From assembly GCA_037178675.1 (NCBI GenBank), contig JAYMGJ010000100.1, forward strand, positions 118,646-182,645: DNA of 64,000 bases. Reading direction: 5' to 3'. Positions 19,446-61,086 of the stretch are shown piece after piece. The notes beneath the pieces are model-generated. The model was not told the DNA's origin. It was given only the letters and a program-made list of their open reading frames with translations, and did not search any database. The DNA comes from Scleroderma bovista (taxonomy: Eukaryota; Basidiomycota; Agaricomycetes; Boletales; Sclerodermataceae). The position numbers and the translations under genes were made by a program. The stretch's first letter is position 1. Each line of letters starts with the position of its first letter.

Positions 19446-22083
19446 CTAGGAAAGATTGCCATTCAAAACATTCCTTCTCTCTATCCACGCACCCGGACCA
19501 AGCGAAGCAGCAAGCCGACCGATCAAAGTACCCGATACTTGTGGACTGGACATGAAAGCACGACTTGTGCAAATGATCATGCTTTTCTTGCAACGAGTGA
19601 GCATCACGTTGGTGCGCCGCTCGTTTTGAAGAAAACCGATATTCCGTGAGCGGACTACCGACACGATGATATGATCGCCCTCGTTACCTGTGTTCATCAG
19701 AAACGGACTGCAGCAATCGACACATATGACGGACCTTGGAACGAATCGACGTTGAAGACCTTGTTTTCCCAATTCAGATTCGCACTTTTAAGCCCAATCT
19801 CAATGACAGTGCGCTGGGCATCATAGGGTGTAATAATCCGATAAGGCTTGTTCCGATCTTGATACAAACGAGCGATGCGACAAACAATCATAGCTTCTCC
19901 ACGATTCTAAGTACATGCCTTCAGTATTGCAGCAGCAACGTAGCAAAACAGGACATACCACCCAGCTGTGGCCCTGTTTGGCTTCATTTCCACCCTTAAC
20001 ATCAATAAACCGACATGCTTTGCGATCAGTGATATCGTGGAAACTAGTCAGTTTCCCGAGATAGATATTCTCTGAGATGAAGTCGCCAATGACGCATGGT
20101 AACCGGTCTAGTCCTCATTAGGTGTGCAGGGTTAGAAAAAGGGGAACGCATACATTGTATATCCAAGAAAACCGCATTCTTCAGTAGATGATCAAACTCG
20201 AAAACACTTCGGAGCCCACAGACTTCCTCCTGGCCATATGGAGCCACTGTGCAACAGAGTTAGTCACTGGTCATTGTTGAGGATAAAGACGAACGCTGCT
20301 TGTTGTCTCCAATGAAAACAAATTTCCTCAAAGTTGATGAAAAGCGATGGATGACAGGAATATAATCCCCAACTTCGATTTGACTAGCCTCGTCAAACAT
20401 AATTGTATGTACTGGAGCGATATGAGTGTAGGCAGCGATGGAAGGGTTTGACAACATAGTCAGCGTGCACAATATGACTCTGGCATCCAGAAGTTGCCTT
20501 GCTGCTCCAACAATGTCTTCGCTAAAGGCATCAGAGCGGATGAAGTGTGGTTCGAGGATGTCTTTGTATAGATGCTCATGCCTATTGGAAGTCTTGAGGG
20601 AGAGTAGCTCACAGGGAAAACGAACACACCAATCGAAATGAAAGTCTCTGGAAACCAATAATTTGAAATCATAGAAGCCGACGTCACAAAACTTCTCAGC
20701 AATGTTCTTCACGGCGACGTTGGACTGCGCAGCAATCCAAACTGAACGGCGGCGGTTTGCATGGTGGAAGCTAGTAACAGCAGCCGCGATGACTGTGGTC
20801 TTTCCTGTTCCCGGAGGACCATGGATCATTACTACGCGATTGTCATCATCAGACGACAGGATCTTCTCGACCGCCATCTCCTGCGAGGGATTAAGGGTAC
20901 GTCGCGGAAAATATACGGATGGCTCAAGAGTGCTGTGACCTTGCTTTGGCCATGACGTGCGCTCATGTGGAAGCCAGATACGTTGGAAAAATGGCTGTGA
21001 TAAGATCGATGTTCGCCTTTGAAGGGTGTGTAAGATGGTAACCTGTCGAGCAGTTTCCGCAAAGTTCATGTCGTCCTTGCCGATAGTGCTGACCGACACA
21101 ATTTCTCCTCTGACAGGGCCATCCACCGATACTTGTACCTTTCGCCCCTGAACCTGCGTAGTGCGACCTGCCACACTATTTTTCGAGGTCCCACTTTTAG
21201 TTTCTATCAAAAGAAACTTACAAAGCATTCGAATGACATAGGTTGGTTAGCACAAAGGAACATACCTGACTACCAGAGGGCCTGATGCGAGTGCGAAAGC
21301 GTTCACAAGTCAAGTTAACTCTGTCCCCCTTCACAGAGAAATCGGGCCGCACATCATTCCTGGTGAAAGTGGGTTTGATCGACTCCAGGAGATCACCGTC
21401 ACGTGCAATCCTGGCCAAGGAAGCCAATTCCTAGGTCGATGGACAATGAGCGGAGGCCACGAAATTCAAAAGTAACGTACCTTCTGTGTCAACTTGAGCG
21501 TATCGATCCTTGGGACAGAGGTCGTGTTGTACAAAATGGCAACTGTACACGCCGCCCATGCTTGCATCGCTACATCAGAGTGCGACATTTCCTTTGCATT
21601 TTTGAAGAACAAGACTTTCACATTCTGCTTGTGCAACATGTGTTCTCCGCCCATGACACCCAAAACTCTCTCCAACGAATGCCTATTACCTTTCGGTTTT
21701 AGAGACAGCAGATCTACTGCATTAGAAATTCGCAATGACAGGTCCGTGAAGAGAGAAAGAGCGAAGGTATCCATCTTAAAGGCGTACTTGGTATAGCGAG
21801 AGTTGTCAAGAATACAATCCTTGATGAGTTCCAACGCGCGCCTGCCATGCCGCTTCGAAAAATGAACAACAAGAGACGACGTCAGAGTGGCGAAGGCGAT
21901 GGAGGTAATGGCGCAACGTTTGCCATAGATCGCCGACACGCCAACTCTCTCCTCGCTGGAGTCAGTGGGCAAAAAGGACAAGAGAATTTCTTTCTCAAGA
22001 ACCCTCTCATCTACCGTTGTGATAGAGATAGGTGGAAAAGACTGCTTGAATAAGCCCTGGTCGACAGTGAATTTCTTCGTCAT
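19446..22083 (-). CDS. RNase D-like/UPF1-like SF1 helicase fusion, copy E
   Basis: Exons 22083-21481, 21430-21266, 21216-20295, 20246-20154, 20107-19959, 19906-19735 and 19687-19446 join to 782 codons, the same architecture as copies A and D. Walker A, D-E-A-S, G-D-N-K-Q and N-V-M-L-T-R-C-K are intact. The motif equivalent to T-Q-Y-R reads I-Q-Y-R, a change in an otherwise conserved position. Here the exon 1 donor is a canonical GTACGT, unlike the GC donors in A and D. The N-terminal 200 residues again resemble a DEDD exonuclease without clear catalytic acids (V-G-V-S-A-I-Y, F-K-M-D-T-F-A-L-S-L-F). It is the upstream-most copy, divergent from PAM18. Confidence 0.85.
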
Positions 22084-40332: not shown

Positions 40333-41862
40333 TCAGTTCACAGATTTAACACTCACCACCCTTAGGGGAGAATCTCCGTCCATAGAAAGATACATATGAG
40401 GTTTCACCAGGAAATGATCCATGTCCAGGATACAGTGCATCCGCAATTCTTCATACAAATTGGAAAAAAGCCCTGCGTCATTTTCGTGAGCTGCCTTCCA
40501 CGAGTTGTTGGTAGCAGCTGTCGTGAATTTCAGGCGCAACCGTGGTAGACCCAACTTCTGTCTCTCCTTCAGCCACGACACCAGTCGGTCAGTTCCCTGA
40601 GGGAACCAATCGTTGGGGAGGAGGATGTCGAAAGTCAAACTCTCGAGGAACCTCCAGGAGTCCGGATGATCGTCGAAGAGGGGGGATATGAGTTGAAGGT
40701 CTCCTTGTATATGATGCACACATGGAAATGCACGTGAAAGCGCCATAGCGTCGTCATAGCCAATGTCGTCGTGGTGCGGCAACGATACACTCGGAGAAAA
40801 GCAGAGTCGGTGGACATGGTCGAATTTGGATCCCAGATCACCAAACACCACAGCAGTACGACTTTCCCCAGGGTCACCTAGGTATGTAAATTGGGTCAGA
40901 ACAGGTACAACGATGGCCTCCAGGAACTGTCTCCCTCCAAAGAGGTGAAGATCAAGTGTATGGAGAAGCGGAAAATGGATGCTATTTGGTGGAAGTCTCA
41001 AGAAAGAGACATCGCCCGTGAGTGAGAGAGTCGTCAATGATTTAGCTGGGATCTGACGTAAGAAGGTAGTAGGGTCGATGTTAGGGATCACCGAAAATAG
41101 TTTCAATTTAAGCGATTTCAGAGTGTTGACAGTGCGAAAACGAGCTGACGGAGGATAGCTGTCAAGTTCCATATGTTCGAGAACAGGGGTGTATTTTGGG
41201 GCAAGGAAGTCAGGATAGGTCAATAACGCGTTTCCATCATTGGTATCGAGTGGTTGGCTTGGACTGATAATGGCCCTTTTGAGGGAAGGGAATGTCAGAC
41301 GACTGAACTTTCGAACGATGGGATTGTGTATTTGTAATAAGTTGAGATCTCCAATAATGACCATGCTACGCCAACGCTGCACACTGGGGATGAGTGAAGC
41401 GAGTTTCGCAAGAAGTAGATCAACTTCTTTGTGGCCGGCAAATCCATACCTCGGTCGGCATTGGATTATAACGTCCAGAGGTGCATCGTGGCTCCGCTTC
41501 AAATATGTCGCTGGTGAAGGTGTGCTTGGGCCCACCTCGATAGTAGTCCAAAGACTTGGACAACCGAAGATGATATCCCTCCAACGGCGCGACACACTAG
41601 CCAATTCCAGCTTCCTACCACCATCGGACTTGTATACAGAGAGGAATATATCATTCTCTTTGGGTATCGCAAGGGAAATTATATCCAATAGCAATTCAGC
41701 AGGAAGCCGATCGATTGGCGTTGGTCTGTTCCTAATCAATGCATCGATTTTGGATCGTTGCGCAGCAGCAATCTCCTTCGCATCCAAGAACTGCTGAAGG
41801 AGATTCTCTACCTTTGCTTCTAGTCGAGCCAGCTCAATTCGGGCCTTGGCTAGTTCATCCAT
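40333..41862 (-). CDS. F-box protein with leucine-rich C-terminus (1)
   Basis: This is a single exon from the ATG at 41862 (M-D-E-L-A-K-A-R-I-E-L-A-R-L-E). A short N-terminal coiled coil precedes the F-box: I-D-R-L-P-A-E-L-L-L-D-I-I, then R-K-L-E-L-A-S-V-S-R-R-W-R-D-I-I and C-P-S-L-W-T-T-I. The remaining 400 residues have irregular leucine-rich repeats (S-L-K-S-L-K-L-K-L-F, L-T-T-L-S-L-T-G). Such proteins act as substrate adaptors of SCF ubiquitin ligases through Skp1, and mushrooms have hundreds of them. The substrate cannot be inferred. Confidence 0.8.
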   Translation of the reverse strand: MDELAKARIELARLEAKVENLLQQFLDAKEIAAAQRSKIDALIRNRPTPIDRLPAELLLDIISLAIPKENDIFLSVYKSDGGRKLELASVSRRWRDIIFGCPSLWTTIEVGPSTPSPATYLKRSHDAPLDVIIQCRPRYGFAGHKEVDLLLAKLASLIPSVQRWRSMVIIGDLNLLQIHNPIVRKFSRLTFPSLKRAIISPSQPLDTNDGNALLTYPDFLAPKYTPVLEHMELDSYPPSARFRTVNTLKSLKLKLFSVIPNIDPTTFLRQIPAKSLTTLSLTGDVSFLRLPPNSIHFPLLHTLDLHLFGGRQFLEAIVVPVLTQFTYLGDPGESRTAVVFGDLGSKFDHVHRLCFSPSVSLPHHDDIGYDDAMALSRAFPCVHHIQGDLQLISPLFDDHPDSWRFLESLTFDILLPNDWFPQGTDRLVSWLKERQKLGLPRLRLKFTTAATNNSWKAAHENDAGLFSNLYEELRMHCILDMDHFLVKPHMYLSMDGDSPLRVVSVKSVN

Positions 41863-42820
41863 GCTGTAGTGAGAAATACAGGAAGGCCGCGCTGTCAACA
41901 GATGTGTCTGGTCAGTCTTATTATTACGCACCCAAGATTTGTGCTTCCAGCGTTCTACTTGAGAGTGTTCTCAAGAATGAAAGACGAGTGAAAGTACAGC
42001 AAGTTGATCACTGCAGAGTTGAGCGCGTGGCCAAATTATGTAATAACTGACTTGTCTGAAACTGGCACTGGGCAGCCTATAAAGTTCATCACGACTTATG
42101 CAATTACAAGACTAACAGACAATCAACCCAAACTTTATGGGGGCGGAGGAATAACCAGGGAACGTAGTGAGATTCTGGGCGGGTTCATCATGCAAGACCT
42201 GGGTTCATGGCAACACCGGAGGTTCATAGTCCTTCAAGTCCTCCCTACTCACTGAGGTCATCGTAATGCACCCATCCTTGTCCCCACGTACACATTACGT
42301 TCTGCTTTCTCTCATTGGGCGACGCCCATACACTGGCAGTGCCGGTTCTCGGAAACAAAGGTTTGCGACTGCTGATCTTGACCAGAATACAGCATCCGGG
42401 ATAGTTATCGATACTCCGCGACCGTCGGGACGCCCATACACTGGCAGTGCTGGTTCTCGGAAACAAAGGTTTGCGACTGCTGATCTTGACCAGAATACAG
42501 CATCCGGGATAGTTATCGATACTCCGCGACTGTCGGGACCACCACCTTCTAGAAGTTCCTCTAGCTGTTGTTCTTTCTCGCCCGGGGAAACCAACTATGG
42601 AACACGGGACTTTAGCCCGCCAGCAGCATAGGTGATTTGGCAGTGCCAAGCAACCCTGTTTCATGTTACCTATATATTCATGCTAAGTCGTAAACGGGAT
42701 TCAGCACTGGAAGTTTATCTTAACGCTCATAAGTTTCGAACTTATCTCCAGATCAATGATGCGATATAAAGTGAATCAACTCTCCTTCGACGTTGACCAT
42801 TTTGATCCTTTCGCAACGGC
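41863..42820. other. Intergenic region with a 108-bp tandem duplication
   Basis: Apart from the tandem repeat at 42321-42536, I see no supportable gene. The plus-strand frame 42266-42631 is open across the repeat but has no recognisable domain, and the opposite strand is open as well, so openness alone does not show coding. Confidence 0.4.
42321..42536. repeat. Direct tandem duplication, two 108-bp units
   Basis: Unit 1 starts at 42321 and unit 2 at 42429, both with GACGCCCATACACTGGCAGT. They differ at only a few positions (for example GCCGG against GCTGG). The period is 36 codons, so any frame through it is preserved. Near-identity suggests recent origin. Confidence 0.85.
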
Positions 42821-44234
42821 ATGGACAACAAGCCTTGTAGCGTGCGCCAGTGGTTCTCCGCCCACATACCAAAGATCCATGCCGTCAAAATCCGGAACTT
42901 GCGTTCAAGGCGGGACTTGGAGTACAAATTCTCATTGCAGCGTGACAATGATGATCTCGAAGAAAATGCGGCCAATCACAACAGTTTGTCAGGTCTCAGG
43001 CATGCAACTGCTCAATCAAACACCGACATTATTCCTGGCCAATCGGACACCGTGACCAAGCTTTCGGATGGTGCCCAGATGATATTACCCATAGTATTGG
43101 CCATTGGTGACGGAGTTCCTGTCGTAGGAGGTGTCGTCAAGGCTGTCGCGGGAGGACTGTTATATTTACTGGAAAGAATGGAGGCGAGTTTTCACTTGTC
43201 TGTTATGACATATCCTATTTATTACATGCCATGCCCAGCAGAGGTGCAACCAAAATAAAGAAGATCTTCAAGACCTTGTAACGAAACTTGAACAAGCAAT
43301 GCAAGATGCGGAAGACTTTCCGGCCATCCGAAACAAAGCACAGGAGGAGACACAAAAGGAGTTTGTGAGGTGCGCCATATTCATATCCCCTGGACTTCCG
43401 AAATAAACTTGCACCCAAGTGACATGAAGAGACTCCTATTTAAAATCGAGAAGATGCGGAGCGGTCGCTACAGATCTCCGCTTCAGTGGGGGTCATCGAA
43501 GCTTATGCAAGAGATCACCGCGTGCGCAAAGGAGATGGACAGTCATATGACGAACTACCTGGTAGCACGTTTTGTCACGGTATATGGCGATGAACTTAGC
43601 TCCACTCGCTCTAGGCGTGGTGTCAGGCAGAAGGCCTCCTTCATATTGACAACAAGCTAGACCACCTCATAGTTGCTCAGACTACGATGACGAAGCGCTT
43701 CAATGAGTTTGCCGTGCGCCAATCCCCCAGTGCAGGTGTTATACCGCTTCAATGTGTTACTTTGATCGATGCCATGGGTCGCCAACACCCAATCCCCCTC
43801 AGCTTCTGTTGGTCCTACAAGGTTTTCAGTAACAGTTTCATGTGTATTCAATGAGAAAACTGATTGTGCTACCCTAGACTCTCCTTACGTCCTTCGTACA
43901 CCTGCTGTGCAATCCCGCGTATCCATCTCTGGATGGGGAATTCATGCTTAGGTGTATACTTGCGACACGATTTGAGTTGTGTATTGACAAGGGGTACGAG
44001 GTAAGGGAACTCACGAACAGAGATAAAGATTGGGAAGCAGGTACCACAATCGTGATGAGAATAGTCTTCGAGGAGTTTGCCAGGGCTGCAACACTTTACA
44101 AATGTAGGATTTGTGGTTGTGAAATATATCTGGAGACGGGAGCAATCGATGACACAGCGGGCATCATGGCACCCATCGGTGTCTCAACGGAATGGTTGGT
44201 CAGACCATATGTCAGATATGATGTATGCTTATGA
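42821..44234 (+). CDS. MLKL/HeLo-like N-terminal plus ubiquitin-like domain protein
   Basis: The gene has several exons whose borders are approximate. The N-terminal part reads G-D-G-V-P-V-V-G-G-V-V-K-A-V-A-G-G-L-L-Y-L-L-E-R-M-E. After an intron comes N-K-E-D-L-Q-D-L-V-T-K-L-E-Q-A. This glycine-rich helix followed by N-K-x-D-L matches the start of fungal MLKL/HeLo-like helical bundles, which sit at the front of cell-death and NLR-type proteins. The C-terminal part reads V-T-L-I-D-A-M-G-R-Q-H-P-I-P-L (about 43760), then L-C-I-D-K-G-Y-E-V and W-E-A-G-T-T-I-V-M-R-I-V (about 44040). That is the ubiquitin-like domain common at the ends of agaricomycete proteins. Two cysteines follow (Y-K-C-R-I-C-G-C). 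No nucleotide-binding domain is seen. The middle has stops in every frame unless spliced, so decay is possible. It ends 45 bp before the micro-exon gene, and the two could be one transcript. Confidence 0.45.
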
Positions 44235-44279
44235 CTTTGTAGTCAAGGATGCCAAGCACGCCATCAGGTGTTCCGAACA

Positions 44280-47200
44280 ATGGCGTTTGATCCCTGGGAG
44301 CCTTGGGTTGGTATAAATGATATTGATGGTGCAACAGATCCTGCGTTGTTTAGGGTTCGGAACTATCGTCTTCAGCAAGTGGTAAGCATCTTTTGTAAGA
44401 AGATTCCTGCTTGACTCAGTTGCCACCACAATGCACACCTCTCATTCCTGGCCATATGATGCACTCCGTGTCCGCCGCGTTCTCAGGAAGTAAGTGCTCT
44501 GCATTCTATAGGCTGTCAAGCTCGAATGCGGCGTTTCCAGGTTGTGCGTAATCTAATACATTGACCAATTGAACTCTCTTTGATGACCCTTTTTTCAGTT
44601 GGTACGTGTCTTCGTCCATCGAGAACTTGAGTCGTTAAGCCCTTGCTCCTCAGGAGGTATGTACCTCGGCACTCAGCAAGGAATCCATTGTTCCTGCTGA
44701 TGTATTATTTTCAGATAGTACGTGATAATACGCGTCACACGTTTAGCGTATTTTCTGATATTTCCTTTGCCTTTCTCCTCCCATAGCATGTAAGTAAAGC
44801 CGTTAAACGGTCTCTGGCAGTTGACCCACCTTGATTCTTAGCAAGTGCGTGTGCCCATCGAACTAGGTATTCAAGTTGATTCCAAACTATTTGCTACCCT
44901 CCCCATTTTCAGGCAGTAAGTAGTCTAGGATGTAAATTAGCATAACCTATTCTGATACATCTTCAGATTGTACGTGTCTTTTCTAATTATAAAGCGTAAA
45001 GCGAACTTTTCATGCCTTCGTCCCAGGATGTGCGTAGTGCACAAATATGAGCAGGGAAATCATTTCTGACAAGCTGATGTCCCCTACGCCTTCAGTTTGT
45101 GCGTCGTGCAGTTACTACATAATTGGCGGGGCATCACTGCTAAGGCTCTTTTCTTCAGGATGTGGGTCACATTGCCGCTTGAGCAGCAATACTGATACAT
45201 TCTTTATTTCCTCTCGCCTCCAGAGAGTAGGTAATGTCATATGAATGGCTTCGTAGAATATTTCTGACCTTCGCCTTCCCGCCTTGTTTTTAGTGGGTGC
45301 GTTAAAGGAATTGTGCGAGAGGGCGATTAACGATGAGCTTCCGCACACAGGGAGTATGTGTCCACCTGCACTACTTAAACAGACTAAGTTGAAGTACGCT
45401 TGTCCCCCCCCCCCCTTCAGCCTGTGCGTAAAGTTATGTGATTATTTTACATGCCACTGCTAACCCATCACCGTCCAATCCACACTCAGATTGTGCGCAC
45501 TTTTTTTTACCGAGATGAATGCTGACCTCAACGTATTTTAGCAAGTGAGTCGTCAGAAATAGTGTATGTATATAATGCTGATACCTATACTACTATCAGG
45601 GGGTATGTGATGTGGTTCAATCGCAAGTGAACCACTTCTAATGCATGCTGTTACCACTCTCCCATCACAGACAGTGCGTGAAGCTTTCATTTGATACAGT
45701 GTCATTCTGAGTCCTCCTTCCCTCACAGGCTGTAGGTGGTGTTATGCATCGAGTGGCAACACATTCATGCTCATTCCTTATGCCTTTTAACTCTTAGCTT
45801 GTGTGTAATATTGAAATCGGAGGCATGCATACATTGTTACTGATGCATATACTCTCTCTTTTCGCTAGCTTGTGCGTATGCTATTGAACTAACCAACCAA
45901 GTAGACTACTGATGCGGCTCCCTTCACTATCAGCGGGTATGTGACATCTCCACCGCTCAGAAATTCTTCTTGAGTCTTCAATTTTAGGAAGTCCGTCATG
46001 ATACATATTGATTCAACAGACAAATTCTAACATGCTTTAACCTTCTTTCACTCGCAGTGGGTAAGTGGCAGTGCTTGTGAATGAGCCTGCTTTGATTGCA
46101 TACTTGTCGATTGCCTTTTAGAGTGTATGTGATGCTAATGAACTATTAGCAAACTGCTGATGACTATGATCATTTTAACTGCTACAGTTCGTGCGTAGTC
46201 CAAACTGTGCAGGATGCCTAGCCATTACTCATACGCTATACTTTAGAAAGTATGTGATACACTGAACGGGATGTTGCTGATGTCCTCCAACTTCGACAAC
46301 CTTCAGGATGTGCGTGTGAATAATCTTGAAAGTCTACATTTCTAATACTCTCTCCCTCTTTACACAGTGTGTGCGTGCCGGCCTTGACTAAATTTGCAAA
46401 ACCAACCCCTGATTTTCGAACTTGACAACATGTTCATTCTCTTCTATAATCAGATGGTTTGTGTCATAGTTAATTGGGTCAGTGAACCCAGCCTTACTGA
46501 CTGCTTCCCGCCTATAGCAAGTATGACGCCGTGCCTCACGAAAACACACTGTTGCTAACACAGTCATTACTATTTCCAACTCCCAGGAAGTGTGTGGCAG
46601 TGTACATTTGGACAATAGTCTGAGGCCTTCTGATGTCTCCTCTGTACAGATTGTGTGTGGCACTGACATCTGAGGAGGCGGACTAATCCTCACCTTTGTT
46701 GTTCTCTCCGATTATCCAGAGAGTGAGTTATTTTACACGCTGTCGCACTTCCGTTTTTGTTCTGATGCCTTTTTCCCCACAACTTTTAGCAGGTGTGCCG
46801 ACATGCTCTGTGGAAATGGATGACAAATTCTAACGTCTTTTCGTTCTATCCACAGGAAGTCGGTAACATTTCGAATTGAGTGGATGTACTATTATTTTGA
46901 CCATTCCACACTCCCTTCTCAGATCGTGCGTGACTATAAATGGTGAGGACGGACAAATGCTGATCCTTTTTGTGACTTGGATCAGATTGTGCGTCACTTT
47001 GCAATCGCTATTTTGAACCATTGTTTCCTATCCCCTGACTTTCAGAGGGTATGTGGAGCCGTGAATACTACCCATACGAGCCATTTCTAATCCATTATTC
47101 GTGATTCCCGTGTTTAGAATGTACGTGTTGTCGTTGATTGTGCAGGATAATGTTTTTTGAAGCGCTATTGATGTTCCCTATTTTCAGCCAGTGCGTATTT

Positions 47201-47447
47201 CTTTGACGTTGGCAAACTCAATGGATCTATATATTGTCCACTCCCACATAGCAAGTATGCGTCATCACTCGCTGAATGTAGAGACTGTTTCTGACGTCCA
47301 AGACCGGCAGCTCCTAGCAGGGGTGGGTTGAGTTCGCTTTGCTTAGACTCCGCATGCTGTTGGATGGTCTCTGATCACTGCTTTACCGCTAGGCGGGACG
47401 AGCAGTTACTGTGCCCCGATTCCAGGAACTGTAGATTTCGAACTTGA
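44280..47447 (+). CDS. Gene built of 44 single-codon micro-exons (unknown function)
   Basis: Exon 1 (44280-44381) is an ordinary 34-codon exon that starts M-A-F-D-P-W-E-P-W-V and ends Y-R-L-Q-Q-V at a GTAAGC donor. Then 44 consecutive 3-nt exons follow, the first GAA at 44487 and the last CAA at 47252. Each has AG immediately before it and GT immediately after. All introns are phase 0, so each exon is one codon. The 44 codons have no stop and spell a plausible helix-like, Glu/Gln/Ile-rich segment with two Trp, beginning E-V-L-E-I-H-Q and ending R-N-P-Q. In phase 1 a TGA appears early. A final exon starts at 47393; depending on the exon around 47311-47326 it ends at TAG 47434 or TGA 47447. The product would be roughly 95-100 residues; I recognise no family. 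Introns are 49-83 nt except the first (105). Expression is unproven. Confidence 0.6.
44487..47254 (+). other. Micro-exon array: 44 x AG-NNN-GT between complete introns
   Basis: The positions of the first base of each 3-nt exon include 44487, 44541, 44599, 44654, 44715, 44787, 44842, 44913, 44967, 45027, 45096, 45159, 45224, 45294, 45351, 45421, 45490, 45542, 45600, 45671, 45729, 45798, 45869, 45934, 45988, 46058, 46122, 46188, 46247, 46307, 46368, 46454, 46518, 46587, 46650, 46720, 46790, 46856, 46923, 46986, 47046, 47118, 47188 and 47252. Forty of the 44 donors fit GTNNGT and 14 are GTGCGT. Most introns show a CTGAC/CTGAT/CTAAC/CTAAT branch site 15-45 nt before a pyrimidine-rich acceptor; one tract is a long C run (about 45403-45415). 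The introns are unrelated to each other, so this is not a satellite. Confidence 0.85.
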
Positions 47448-59228: not shown

Positions 59229-61086
59229 TCAAGACACCCGCTTATACTTATTATACGTAGCCGCAGAAACACCCACATCCACCTCGTCCGCGCACAGCTC
59301 GTTCAGTCGCTTCTCCAGCTCGGGATCCGGATGCGCACAGATAGGCGAGGTCCCAAAGCCCCTGTACCACTCCCACCATATCGTCCAGTGGATCCACTTG
59401 AGCTGCAGAACCTTGCTGTCGCGCGAGCGGAGGACCGTGCGGGACTTGACCATGCGCGAAAATGCCTCTTCGAAGGTAAGCCCCGAGTCGTCGACCTTGT
59501 GCGTCAGCGCATCAATGGACTCGCAGCTGAGCGACAGCGCCTTGAGCCACGGTGCAAGCGGGAGACCCGCCTTCTCTTGCAGCGGAAGCGACGAGGAGGA
59601 CAGGGTCGGCGAGGACTGTGGGGATGGCAGGGCGCCGCACGAGGGGTCGTAGATCATGTCCTTGATGACCTCGCTCAGGACGAGGTGTGTCTTCGCCCCA
59701 TGGAGCTTGAGCAGCACAAGCGACGGACACCGCTCGATGATCTCGCGGAGCTGAACGCCCGTGATGTTGCTTGCGTGGAGGGTGAAGTGGTTGATACTGC
59801 ACTTGGAGCGGGCAAGCAGGGACAGGAAGGAGTCGTGGCACCACGCGGTTGCCATACGGCTGCAGTCCCAGACGCGCGTGAGCATCTGGAAGTCGCGCAG
59901 ATGGGGAAGGACGAGCGCGTCCATGAGGTGGTTGACGCATTCTTCGTGGCTGGTGATGGTGACAAGAACGAGCGTGTTGAGACAGGGCATGGTGATGCGG
60001 TCGAATTGCTCGTCCCACTTGCTCTCGGATCGGTACTGGGATATCTCGACATGGAGATAGCTCAGAAGGGGTGCACACGAGAGAATCTGGAGGAGCTCTG
60101 AGATGTCGGTGGTGCGGTAGCCACCGCGCAGAGTCAGATGAGTGAGCTGCGTCCACGGCAGGGTTCTATGGCTGTCGGGCATGGAGCCTGCAGGAACCTG
60201 GAGTTCACGCAGTTTGGGGAACAGTTCTGGTTTGAACGGTCCCCAGGGGGTGAACTGGGGAGATATCTCGAGCTCCTCTAGGTTCGGGAAGTGACAGCGC
60301 ACGAGCGCATCAAAGGACTCCCAATCTTGATCGTAAGCAGGGAAGTGGATAAAGATGGCCTTCCATCTATCAGAGTTCTCTGCAATGATGTCCGTGAGTT
60401 TCCGGAGGAACGACACGGGCATGTCGTCCGTCAAAAAGTCGTTCCACAACCAAAGCGATACAGGGAAGGGCCGTGAGCGTTCTAGCCATGCTTGCAAGAT
60501 TGCCTCTTGCTTTACAAATGTACCAGCGGTGGGCAGTCTGAGATAGAGTGTAGTCCACAGACGGGGTATCGCAAAGGACAGAGCGCGCCAGCTGCGGCAC
60601 ACGCTTCCCAATAGCAGTGGTGCTCGTTTGCTGGGCTCCGCATGGGGGCCACGAGCACCAATATCTCCACAGAACTCAAATATTCGGGACATGATCTCCG
60701 GTGGCATGCGTCTAATGGGTGAGAGGAGTGCATCGAGATCCTCTACGTAAGAAACGAGCTCTCGCTTTCGTCGCTGGTAGTCTGCAAGACGAGTCTGCAG
60801 GCTGGTTATGTCGTTCTCTACTGCTTCCAGCTCTGCCTTGGGTTCGGCAAGCAAGGAGCGCACCTCGTCCCGCTGAGTATCAGGTGCAGCGCAATTCGTT
60901 CCGAGCAGGCGCAATATGGACGACTAGCACATGGGTCAGATGTCGCTCCATTCACGAGACCTGAATATCATGGGGGGATGAATCGATACATACCGATGGC
61001 ACCTCCCTCACCTCGCCATATCGCTCGAGTTTGCTCACGTACAGCGGTACGCCAGTTTCTCTCAGAGTTCCAGCCTCTGCATCCAT
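59229..61086 (-). CDS. F-box protein with leucine-rich C-terminus (2)
   Basis: Exons 61086-60994 and 60923-59229 join to 596 codons. The first exon starts M-D-A-E-A-G-T-L-R-E-T-G and joins in phase to S-S-I-L-R-L-L-G-T-N. A coiled coil follows (E-V-E-N-D-I-T-S-L-Q-T-R-L-like heptads), then the F-box I-R-R-M-P-P-E-I-M-S-R-I-F-E-F-C and L-L-L-G-S-V-C-R-S-W-R-A-L-S-F-A-I-P-R-L-W-T-T-L. Leucine-rich repeats run to about residue 480 (L-T-H-L-T-L-R-G-G-Y). This is an SCF ubiquitin-ligase adaptor by family; the target is unknown. It is unrelated in detail to the F-box gene at 40.3 kb. Confidence 0.82.

Follow-up and report, generated by a model that had tools for sequence, protein, structure and literature searches.

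The DNA analysed here is a stretch of 64,000 nucleotides from the basidiomycete Scleroderma bovista (contig JAYMGJ010000100.1 of assembly GCA_037178675.1, positions 118,646 to 182,645 of the forward strand), referred to below as the window. It lies on contig C100 of a 51.8-Mb assembly of 850 contigs, which was the genome searched. A basidiomycete origin was suggested as well by 47 matches to DUF6533, a family typical of mushroom-forming fungi. The window carries on its forward strand a gene, modelled from 42821 to a stop at 47434, whose product resembles the ULD_2 family. The 3' end of this gene is probably a tandem array in which a unit of one codon and one short spliceosomal intron is present 44 times; the array would have arisen by duplication and would be spliced and translated as the tail of the protein. 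The model is one open frame of 493 codons, made up of six conventional exons, the 44 codons, a 12-nt exon and a terminal exon. The array and the features that border it are listed here in window coordinates, with the scores of introns against the array consensus described below.

44243..44381, forward strand: exon 6, the last conventional exon, ending ...VRNYRLQQV in phase 0, donor GTAAGC
44382..44486, forward strand: first intron bordering the array, 105 nt, consensus score -8.65, outside the repeat family
44487..47310, forward strand: array of 44 predicted units, each with a 3-nt exon (one codon) and an intron of 49-83 nt; the codons, joined, read EVLEIHQAIDFDRWGPIQGTALLREWSFKDCMQEIRQEIIRNPQ
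47255..47310, forward strand: intron following codon 44, held out of training, consensus score +7.99
47311..47322, forward strand: predicted 12-nt exon CTCCTAGCAGGG (LLAG), donor GTGGGT, picked for keeping the frame
47323..47392, forward strand: last intron, 70 nt, consensus score -8.98, outside the repeat family
47393..47434, forward strand: terminal exon AGRAVTVPRFQEL, with the stop TAG at 47432-47434

Splice signals and geometry of the array

Consecutive YAG-NNN-GT sites, 44 in number, were found at 44485-47254 of the window (acceptors spanning 44485 to 47250), and at all 44 a [CT]AG acceptor, three bases and a GT followed one another. The description of a micro-exon, a very short exon between canonical acceptor and donor, applied to 44/44 sites. 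The introns after the codons began with GT and carried a G at +5 in every case, with GTNNGT in 40/44 and GTRNGT in 37/44. Their acceptors were CAG (31) or TAG (13), and their lengths ranged from 49 to 83 nt with a mean of 61. In the region 44382-47392, YAG-N3-GTNNGT was observed 40 times, whereas 1000 dinucleotide shuffles averaged 0.43 such sites and never exceeded 5. AG-Nk-GTNNGT at every other spacing from 0 to 12 gave 0 to 5 sites. A strict CTNA(C/T) branch-like motif was present close to the 3' end of 28 of the 44 introns, and YTNAY in 38. A 45th site near 47318 has no GT three bases on, and the 12-nt exon preserves the frame there instead.

These counts bear on the first-pass annotation of this DNA, which had described 44 successive AG-N3-GT sites, 40 of them with GTNNGT donors, at a spacing that could not be chance; the recount and the shuffles confirmed both statements. 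The intron length that it gave, 49-83 nt, held for the 44 introns after the codons but not for the first intron (105 nt), and the CTNA(C/T) motif that it ascribed to the introns was not found in every one of them.

Other interpretations of the geometry were rejected. Stwintrons or nested introns were ruled out, as GT, +5G and YAG are complete in each intron and the three bases in between vary. Recursive splicing through a zero-length exon was ruled out by the spacing, which is 3 and not 0, and protein-coding repeats within the units by the lengths of introns 1-44 modulo 3, which are spread over all classes (19, 18 and 7). An Rfam scan of the window at gathering scores gave no match.

A common consensus in the array introns

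When the array introns were anchored at their donors, a faint common consensus was detected beyond the splice signals, roughly GTGCGTGATNTTGTNNATTGAGNANNNAAANT. The column information at +7 to +34 in 43 array introns was 3.54 bits, compared with 1.39 ± 0.21 bits in their own shuffles (z 10.1), and the same test at +10 to +34 gave z 7.1. For 59 control introns, which were computational predictions from 270 kb of the same genome, z was -1.5, and stricter subsets of 31 and 13 scored alike. A matrix built from either half of the array told the other half apart from the controls (p 6e-6 and 3e-5; odd to even units, p 8e-5). The stretch preceding the branch motif was in agreement, with z 6.2 in the 36 of 44 array introns that were usable and z -1.7 in 51 of the 59 controls. 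The held-out intron after codon 44 scored between the 99.9th (6.66) and the 99.99th (9.02) percentile of the window background (95th percentile 2.02, 99th 4.25). The seven other introns of the gene scored from -1.6 to -9.0, the five upstream ones from -1.58 to -6.72. In the best-kept interior column, an estimated 0.41 of the ancestral state was retained.

A simple recent tandem repeat was ruled out by local alignment and by repeat finders, which reported chiefly the junctions; the relation between the introns was detected by the anchored test alone. The earlier remark that the introns were "not repeats of one another" is therefore correct by local alignment and repeat finders, and incorrect by the position-anchored test. 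A decayed extra unit in the first intron (44423-44486, 64 nt) was unsupported, with a consensus score of -5.85. The best score in the scan past the array, +6.46 at 47399, lies inside the last exon and not at a donor, and was regarded as chance. The variance of pairwise identity among the introns exceeded that of column-permuted sets in some stretches, which may reflect composition and was not relied on.

The simplest account of these sequences is that the repeating unit is one codon with the intron behind it, present 44 times from 44487 to 47310 and multiplied long ago. Alternatively, the shared consensus might be a functional motif of the array introns rather than a sign of common descent. 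Common descent of the 44 units, as ancient tandem duplicates, appears most likely. The "extreme intron gain" proposed by the first-pass annotation would then not consist of independent gains, since the shared consensus indicates that the introns are probably copies of one codon-plus-intron unit.

Coding potential of the joined codons

The 44 joined codons contained no stop, for which the chance expectation was 0.09 to 0.11, and both flanks of the array were in phase 0. Compared with intron triplets, the array triplets had a better codon-usage fit (p 0.019). Their purine content was 59% (78/132) versus 43% (902/2120) in intron interiors (p 3e-4), and some positional bias was seen within the triplets (p 0.028). 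The joined codons comprised 30 distinct codons for 19 of the 20 amino acids. Frame 1 of the codons was open yet out of phase with the flanking exons, and was rejected. These codon statistics are only suggestive, but the flanks in phase, the absence of a stop, the intact dinucleotides and the open joined model support the original proposal of successive one-codon exons in a fungal gene. Translation of the 44 codons is likely on this basis.

Occurrence in the genome and in other genomes

The array DNA matched only itself in the 51.8-Mb genome, although copies that have diverged as far as the units within the array would escape a DNA search of this kind. Three junction patterns occurred at 144, 119 and 72 places in the genome, compared with 143, 108 and 68 for the same patterns reversed. 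The places listed were 100 of the 144, 100 of the 119 and 72 of the 72, and 11, 6 and 2 of those listed were in the array. No second array was seen among the matches listed, and in the first two lists no dense cluster other than the array appeared; the third pattern met just 2 array sites. One other pair was present among the listed places, 120 bases apart on contig C392, and it gave no match to a model of two successive junctions. In the window this model had 30 matches, all in the array, and in 211,548 bases of other stretches it had one weak partial match (E 0.0097), on the minus strand of contig C25 near 15,450. This partial match (L012 5436-5480, minus strand) may represent a solitary 3-nt exon. 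The junction words CCTCGTAGGTGGTATGT and CCCCCTGTAGGTGGTGTGT recurred across many contigs, possibly as a dispersed repeat that contains TAG-GTG-GT by chance. Three pairs of inverted repeats were found, 283 to 2111 nt apart and none within one intron.

A paralogue of the host gene was located on contig C143 (15400-16900). After VRNYxLxQV, the sequence of the paralogue allows a 6-nt exon GTTGCG between two introns, the second of which scores +3.49. This exon is a possible lone micro-exon; the frame upstream of it seems shifted.

Two predicted proteins from other public contigs, P0001 and P0002, were 94% identical to the window over the 34 residues that close exon 6. P0002 continues into the first intron and, compared by eye, differs from the window at 5 of 10 residues past the GTAAGC donor versus 2 of 34 before it. 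The stretch past the donor therefore behaves like an intron. Viral contigs were searched for relatives of P0002 and none was confirmed.

A third match, P0003, on a 4,689-base JGI metagenome contig, was found through an antisense open frame that covers parts or all of introns 32 to 36 together with four codons. All 101 residues aligned without a gap and 93 were identical by BLASTP; seven codons of the 101 were changed, the first residue being read alike. One change was at donor +4 to +6, and none was in an AG, GT or exon triplet where the antisense codons determine them. Part of the array therefore exists in a second, slightly different genome and is not an accident of one assembly, although the divergence is too small to gauge selection.

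Proposed origin and splicing of the array

The reading of the gene's 3' end as a duplicated, spliced and translated array is based on the spacing, the intact splice signals, the hidden consensus, the open joined frame and the second, non-identical partial copy. From these we infer tandem duplication, as opposed to another route of copying, and likewise splicing itself, its order and translation. The array would have grown as one unit of about 64 bp, a codon with its intron, was duplicated in tandem again and again. Every such event would bring in an intron and a single codon, from which a spacing of three bases at 44/44 sites, and never six or nine, would follow. Exon length was 3 in every unit although intron lengths varied from 49 to 83; selection on the frame alone would permit exons of 6 or 9, whereas a constant 3 is as expected from copying one unit. 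The copies, codons included, would have diverged almost to saturation, while selection retained every donor, acceptor and exon length. If the units share one ancestor, signals that are intact at 44/44 sites despite near-random interiors imply that the splicing signals and the exon length are under selection.

The pre-mRNA would be spliced by intron definition, with the short introns recognised as units. Neighbouring introns would be removed stepwise, probably one by one, since three exonic nucleotides leave no room for both splice complexes simultaneously. In plant micro-exons, the two flanking introns are also probably removed one after the other (PMC8831610). The mature mRNA would give a tail of 44 + 4 + 13 residues on a 432-residue ULD_2-like protein. 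As every exon is symmetric, exon skipping would preserve the frame. It is conceivable, but improbable, that the locus represents a new kind of genetic element, namely an expanding codon-plus-intron array with one residue per exon, in which array length would set peptide length and skipping could generate a very large set of in-frame tails.

Several results weigh against the reading of a duplicated, translated array. The leave-one-out consensus score was above 0 in just 23 of 43 array introns (16% in their own shuffles, 4/59 in the controls), and YTNAY was absent from 7 of 43 within the range scanned. Pairwise local alignment of the intron interiors gave 12.06, with no excess over an intron-like background of 11.96 ± 0.15. 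Neighbouring units were no more alike than distant ones and no lag was prominent (p 0.98), so the duplication history itself is not visible. The three paralogue introns scored -2.89, +3.49 and -4.87. The value +3.49 exceeds the 95th percentile of the window background but not the 99th, so introns outside the array may to some extent share the consensus. The paralogue itself has no array, and no YAG-N3-GTNNGT was present on the forward strand of the two stretches examined. The codon-usage likelihood of the array triplets was no better than that of YAG-NNN-GT triplets elsewhere (p 0.48), their purine excess over such triplets had p 0.088, and a second frame of the joined codons was stop-free too. 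No homologue of the tail was found, a 92-aa query matching only the exon that precedes it. A 493-aa query returned nothing at 0.001, not even for the ULD_2-like part, and the database therefore seems to contain few spliced fungal proteins. P0001, judged by eye from the protein alone, appears to lack 11 nt of exon 6; the frame would therefore break before the array, and the gene may be broken in that strain.

Alternative explanations

The array might be spliced without being translated, the protein ending within the first intron (...QQVVSIFCKKIPA) and the array forming a spliced 3' untranslated or non-coding segment. The read-through frame is indeed open to a stop at 44412-44414, P0001 and P0002 are predicted with matching read-through ends, and the codon statistics are weak. 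However, the residue differences between P0002 and the window are concentrated past the donor (5/10, versus 2/34 before it), and an untranslated array gives no reason for the constant 3-nt exons (44/44, with introns of 49 to 83) or for the absence of a stop. We consider this explanation rather unlikely. A decaying pseudogene or a sequence artefact, with no present splicing, would fit the upstream frame of P0001, which seems broken by eye, and the need of the 5' model for one GC donor and one AAG acceptor. Against this, GT, +5G and YAG are intact at 44/44 sites despite near-random intron interiors, and the second genome (P0003) has seven changed codons of 101 with none in a determinable AG, GT or exon triplet; such decay or artefact is very improbable.

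Fungal splicing usually pairs sites across short introns. Such pairing favours the inclusion of each exon, which argues against the array being a combinatorial generator, in which any in-phase 3-nt exon could be skipped to give many tail variants of one protein. This possibility appears improbable, even though each of the 44 exons is symmetric and stop-free, the codons are of 30 different kinds and specify 19 of the 20 amino acids, and the micro-exon genes of schistosomes use short exons that are mostly multiples of three (PMC10526429). Introns with a common consensus could also have come from single insertions of an introner-like element, each placed at a set distance from a splice site already present, and fungal introner-like elements exist (PMC4457414, PMC8469720). 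The array DNA, however, matched itself alone in the genome, in a search that diverged copies would escape, and the array was the sole dense cluster among the junction matches listed (100 of 144 and 100 of 119). None of the inverted-repeat pairs, 283 to 2111 nt apart, lay inside one intron, and insertion of this kind is likewise doubtful.

Comparison with known systems

No described precedent was found for the exon layout of the array. A search for one-codon exon arrays, in literature that consisted mostly of non-subscription papers, returned only isolated or few ultra-short exons per gene, which is no proof of novelty.

The bicycle and megacycle genes of aphids resemble the array in that a single gene is split into many micro-exons, and they differ from it in that here 44/44 exons are one codon long and in phase 0, with introns of probable common descent. 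The internal exons of bicycle genes are longer than one codon. Bicycle genes have about 17 exons on average, almost all internal ones in phase 2, and megacycle has >100 micro-exons (PMC9168663). The micro-exon genes of schistosomes have runs of short symmetric exons, as does the array, in which 44/44 are 3 nt and in phase 0. The schistosome exons range from 3 to 81 bp, are mostly multiples of three and mostly 15 bp, not 3 bp, and the introns are 0.1-5 kb (PMC10526429), in contrast to 49-83 nt in the array.

Isolated ultra-short exons show that an exon of 1-3 nt can be included by spliceosomes, those of fungi among them. The lipS gene of Dactylellina has two exons of 3 nt (PMC5639578), and P450 genes of Fusarium (CYP621A; PMC12940212) have one of 1 nt, as has Arabidopsis APC11 (see PMC12940212, PMC5639578 and PMC8831610). 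Further examples are a 3-bp exon in Drosophila homothorax (PMC7392893) and three neighbouring micro-exons in human RPS24 (PMC11162997). These number one to three per gene, compared with 44 in a row here. Intron gain by tandem genomic duplication, in which a duplicated segment becomes a new intron (PMC4974935), concerned one event in one gene, whereas the 44 units here seem to stem from the multiplication of one. Stwintrons and introner-like elements provide cases of related short fungal introns that multiply, and of nested introns (PMC8469720, PMC5639578). Stwintrons interrupt a splice motif, which was not seen in the array, and introner-like elements are near-identical copies scattered over unrelated genes, whereas the array introns are not near-identical and match only themselves.

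If confirmed, the array would be the most extreme exon fragmentation found described, and would offer a direct test of how the spliceosome copes with exons by the dozen, each below the length at which an exon is recognised as such. Repeated duplication of an intron-bearing unit would lengthen the protein by one codon per event, so that the protein would grow as introns were gained. Very short exons are known to escape gene finders and RNA aligners, and further arrays may therefore exist undetected.

The host gene and other features of the window

The boundaries of the conventional exons (42821-44381) were set by comparison with the paralogue on contig C143 and then chosen by eye. Upstream of exon 6, the model has the following exons.

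42821-43183, 43242-43369, 43420-43561 and 43615-43821, forward strand: 5' exons of the host gene, placed by likeness to the paralogue and choice by eye; joined frame open
43878..44194, forward strand: exon 5, ubiquitin-like and cysteine-bearing, phase-2 donor GTTGGT

The 5' boundaries are the least certain part of the model, because its 5' half has one GC donor (the first, GCGAGT) and one AAG acceptor. Exon 5 was 56% identical to the paralogue over 86 aa (E 6e-29), and was also matched, by eye, by P0002 from another genome. A match to ULD_2 (PF22893) was obtained for one exon (E 8e-4, 20.0 bits) and for the joined model (E 0.0079, 16.8 bits), both below the Pfam cut-off of 24.5, and the host protein is thus called ULD_2-like by resemblance alone. 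The joined model also matched RUFY4 (E 8e-4), again below the Pfam cut-off. The PF22893 profile gave no match over the genome and likewise none in control genomes, and was therefore uninformative.

Just upstream of the gene (42321-42539), a 108-bp unit was present twice in tandem, with 98% likeness between the copies. On the minus strand of the window, long F-box-like open frames were found at 40333-41931 and 59229-60914, the latter just under the Pfam cut-off, and an AAA_11 or helicase-like open frame at 20260-21228 (E 1.6e-23).

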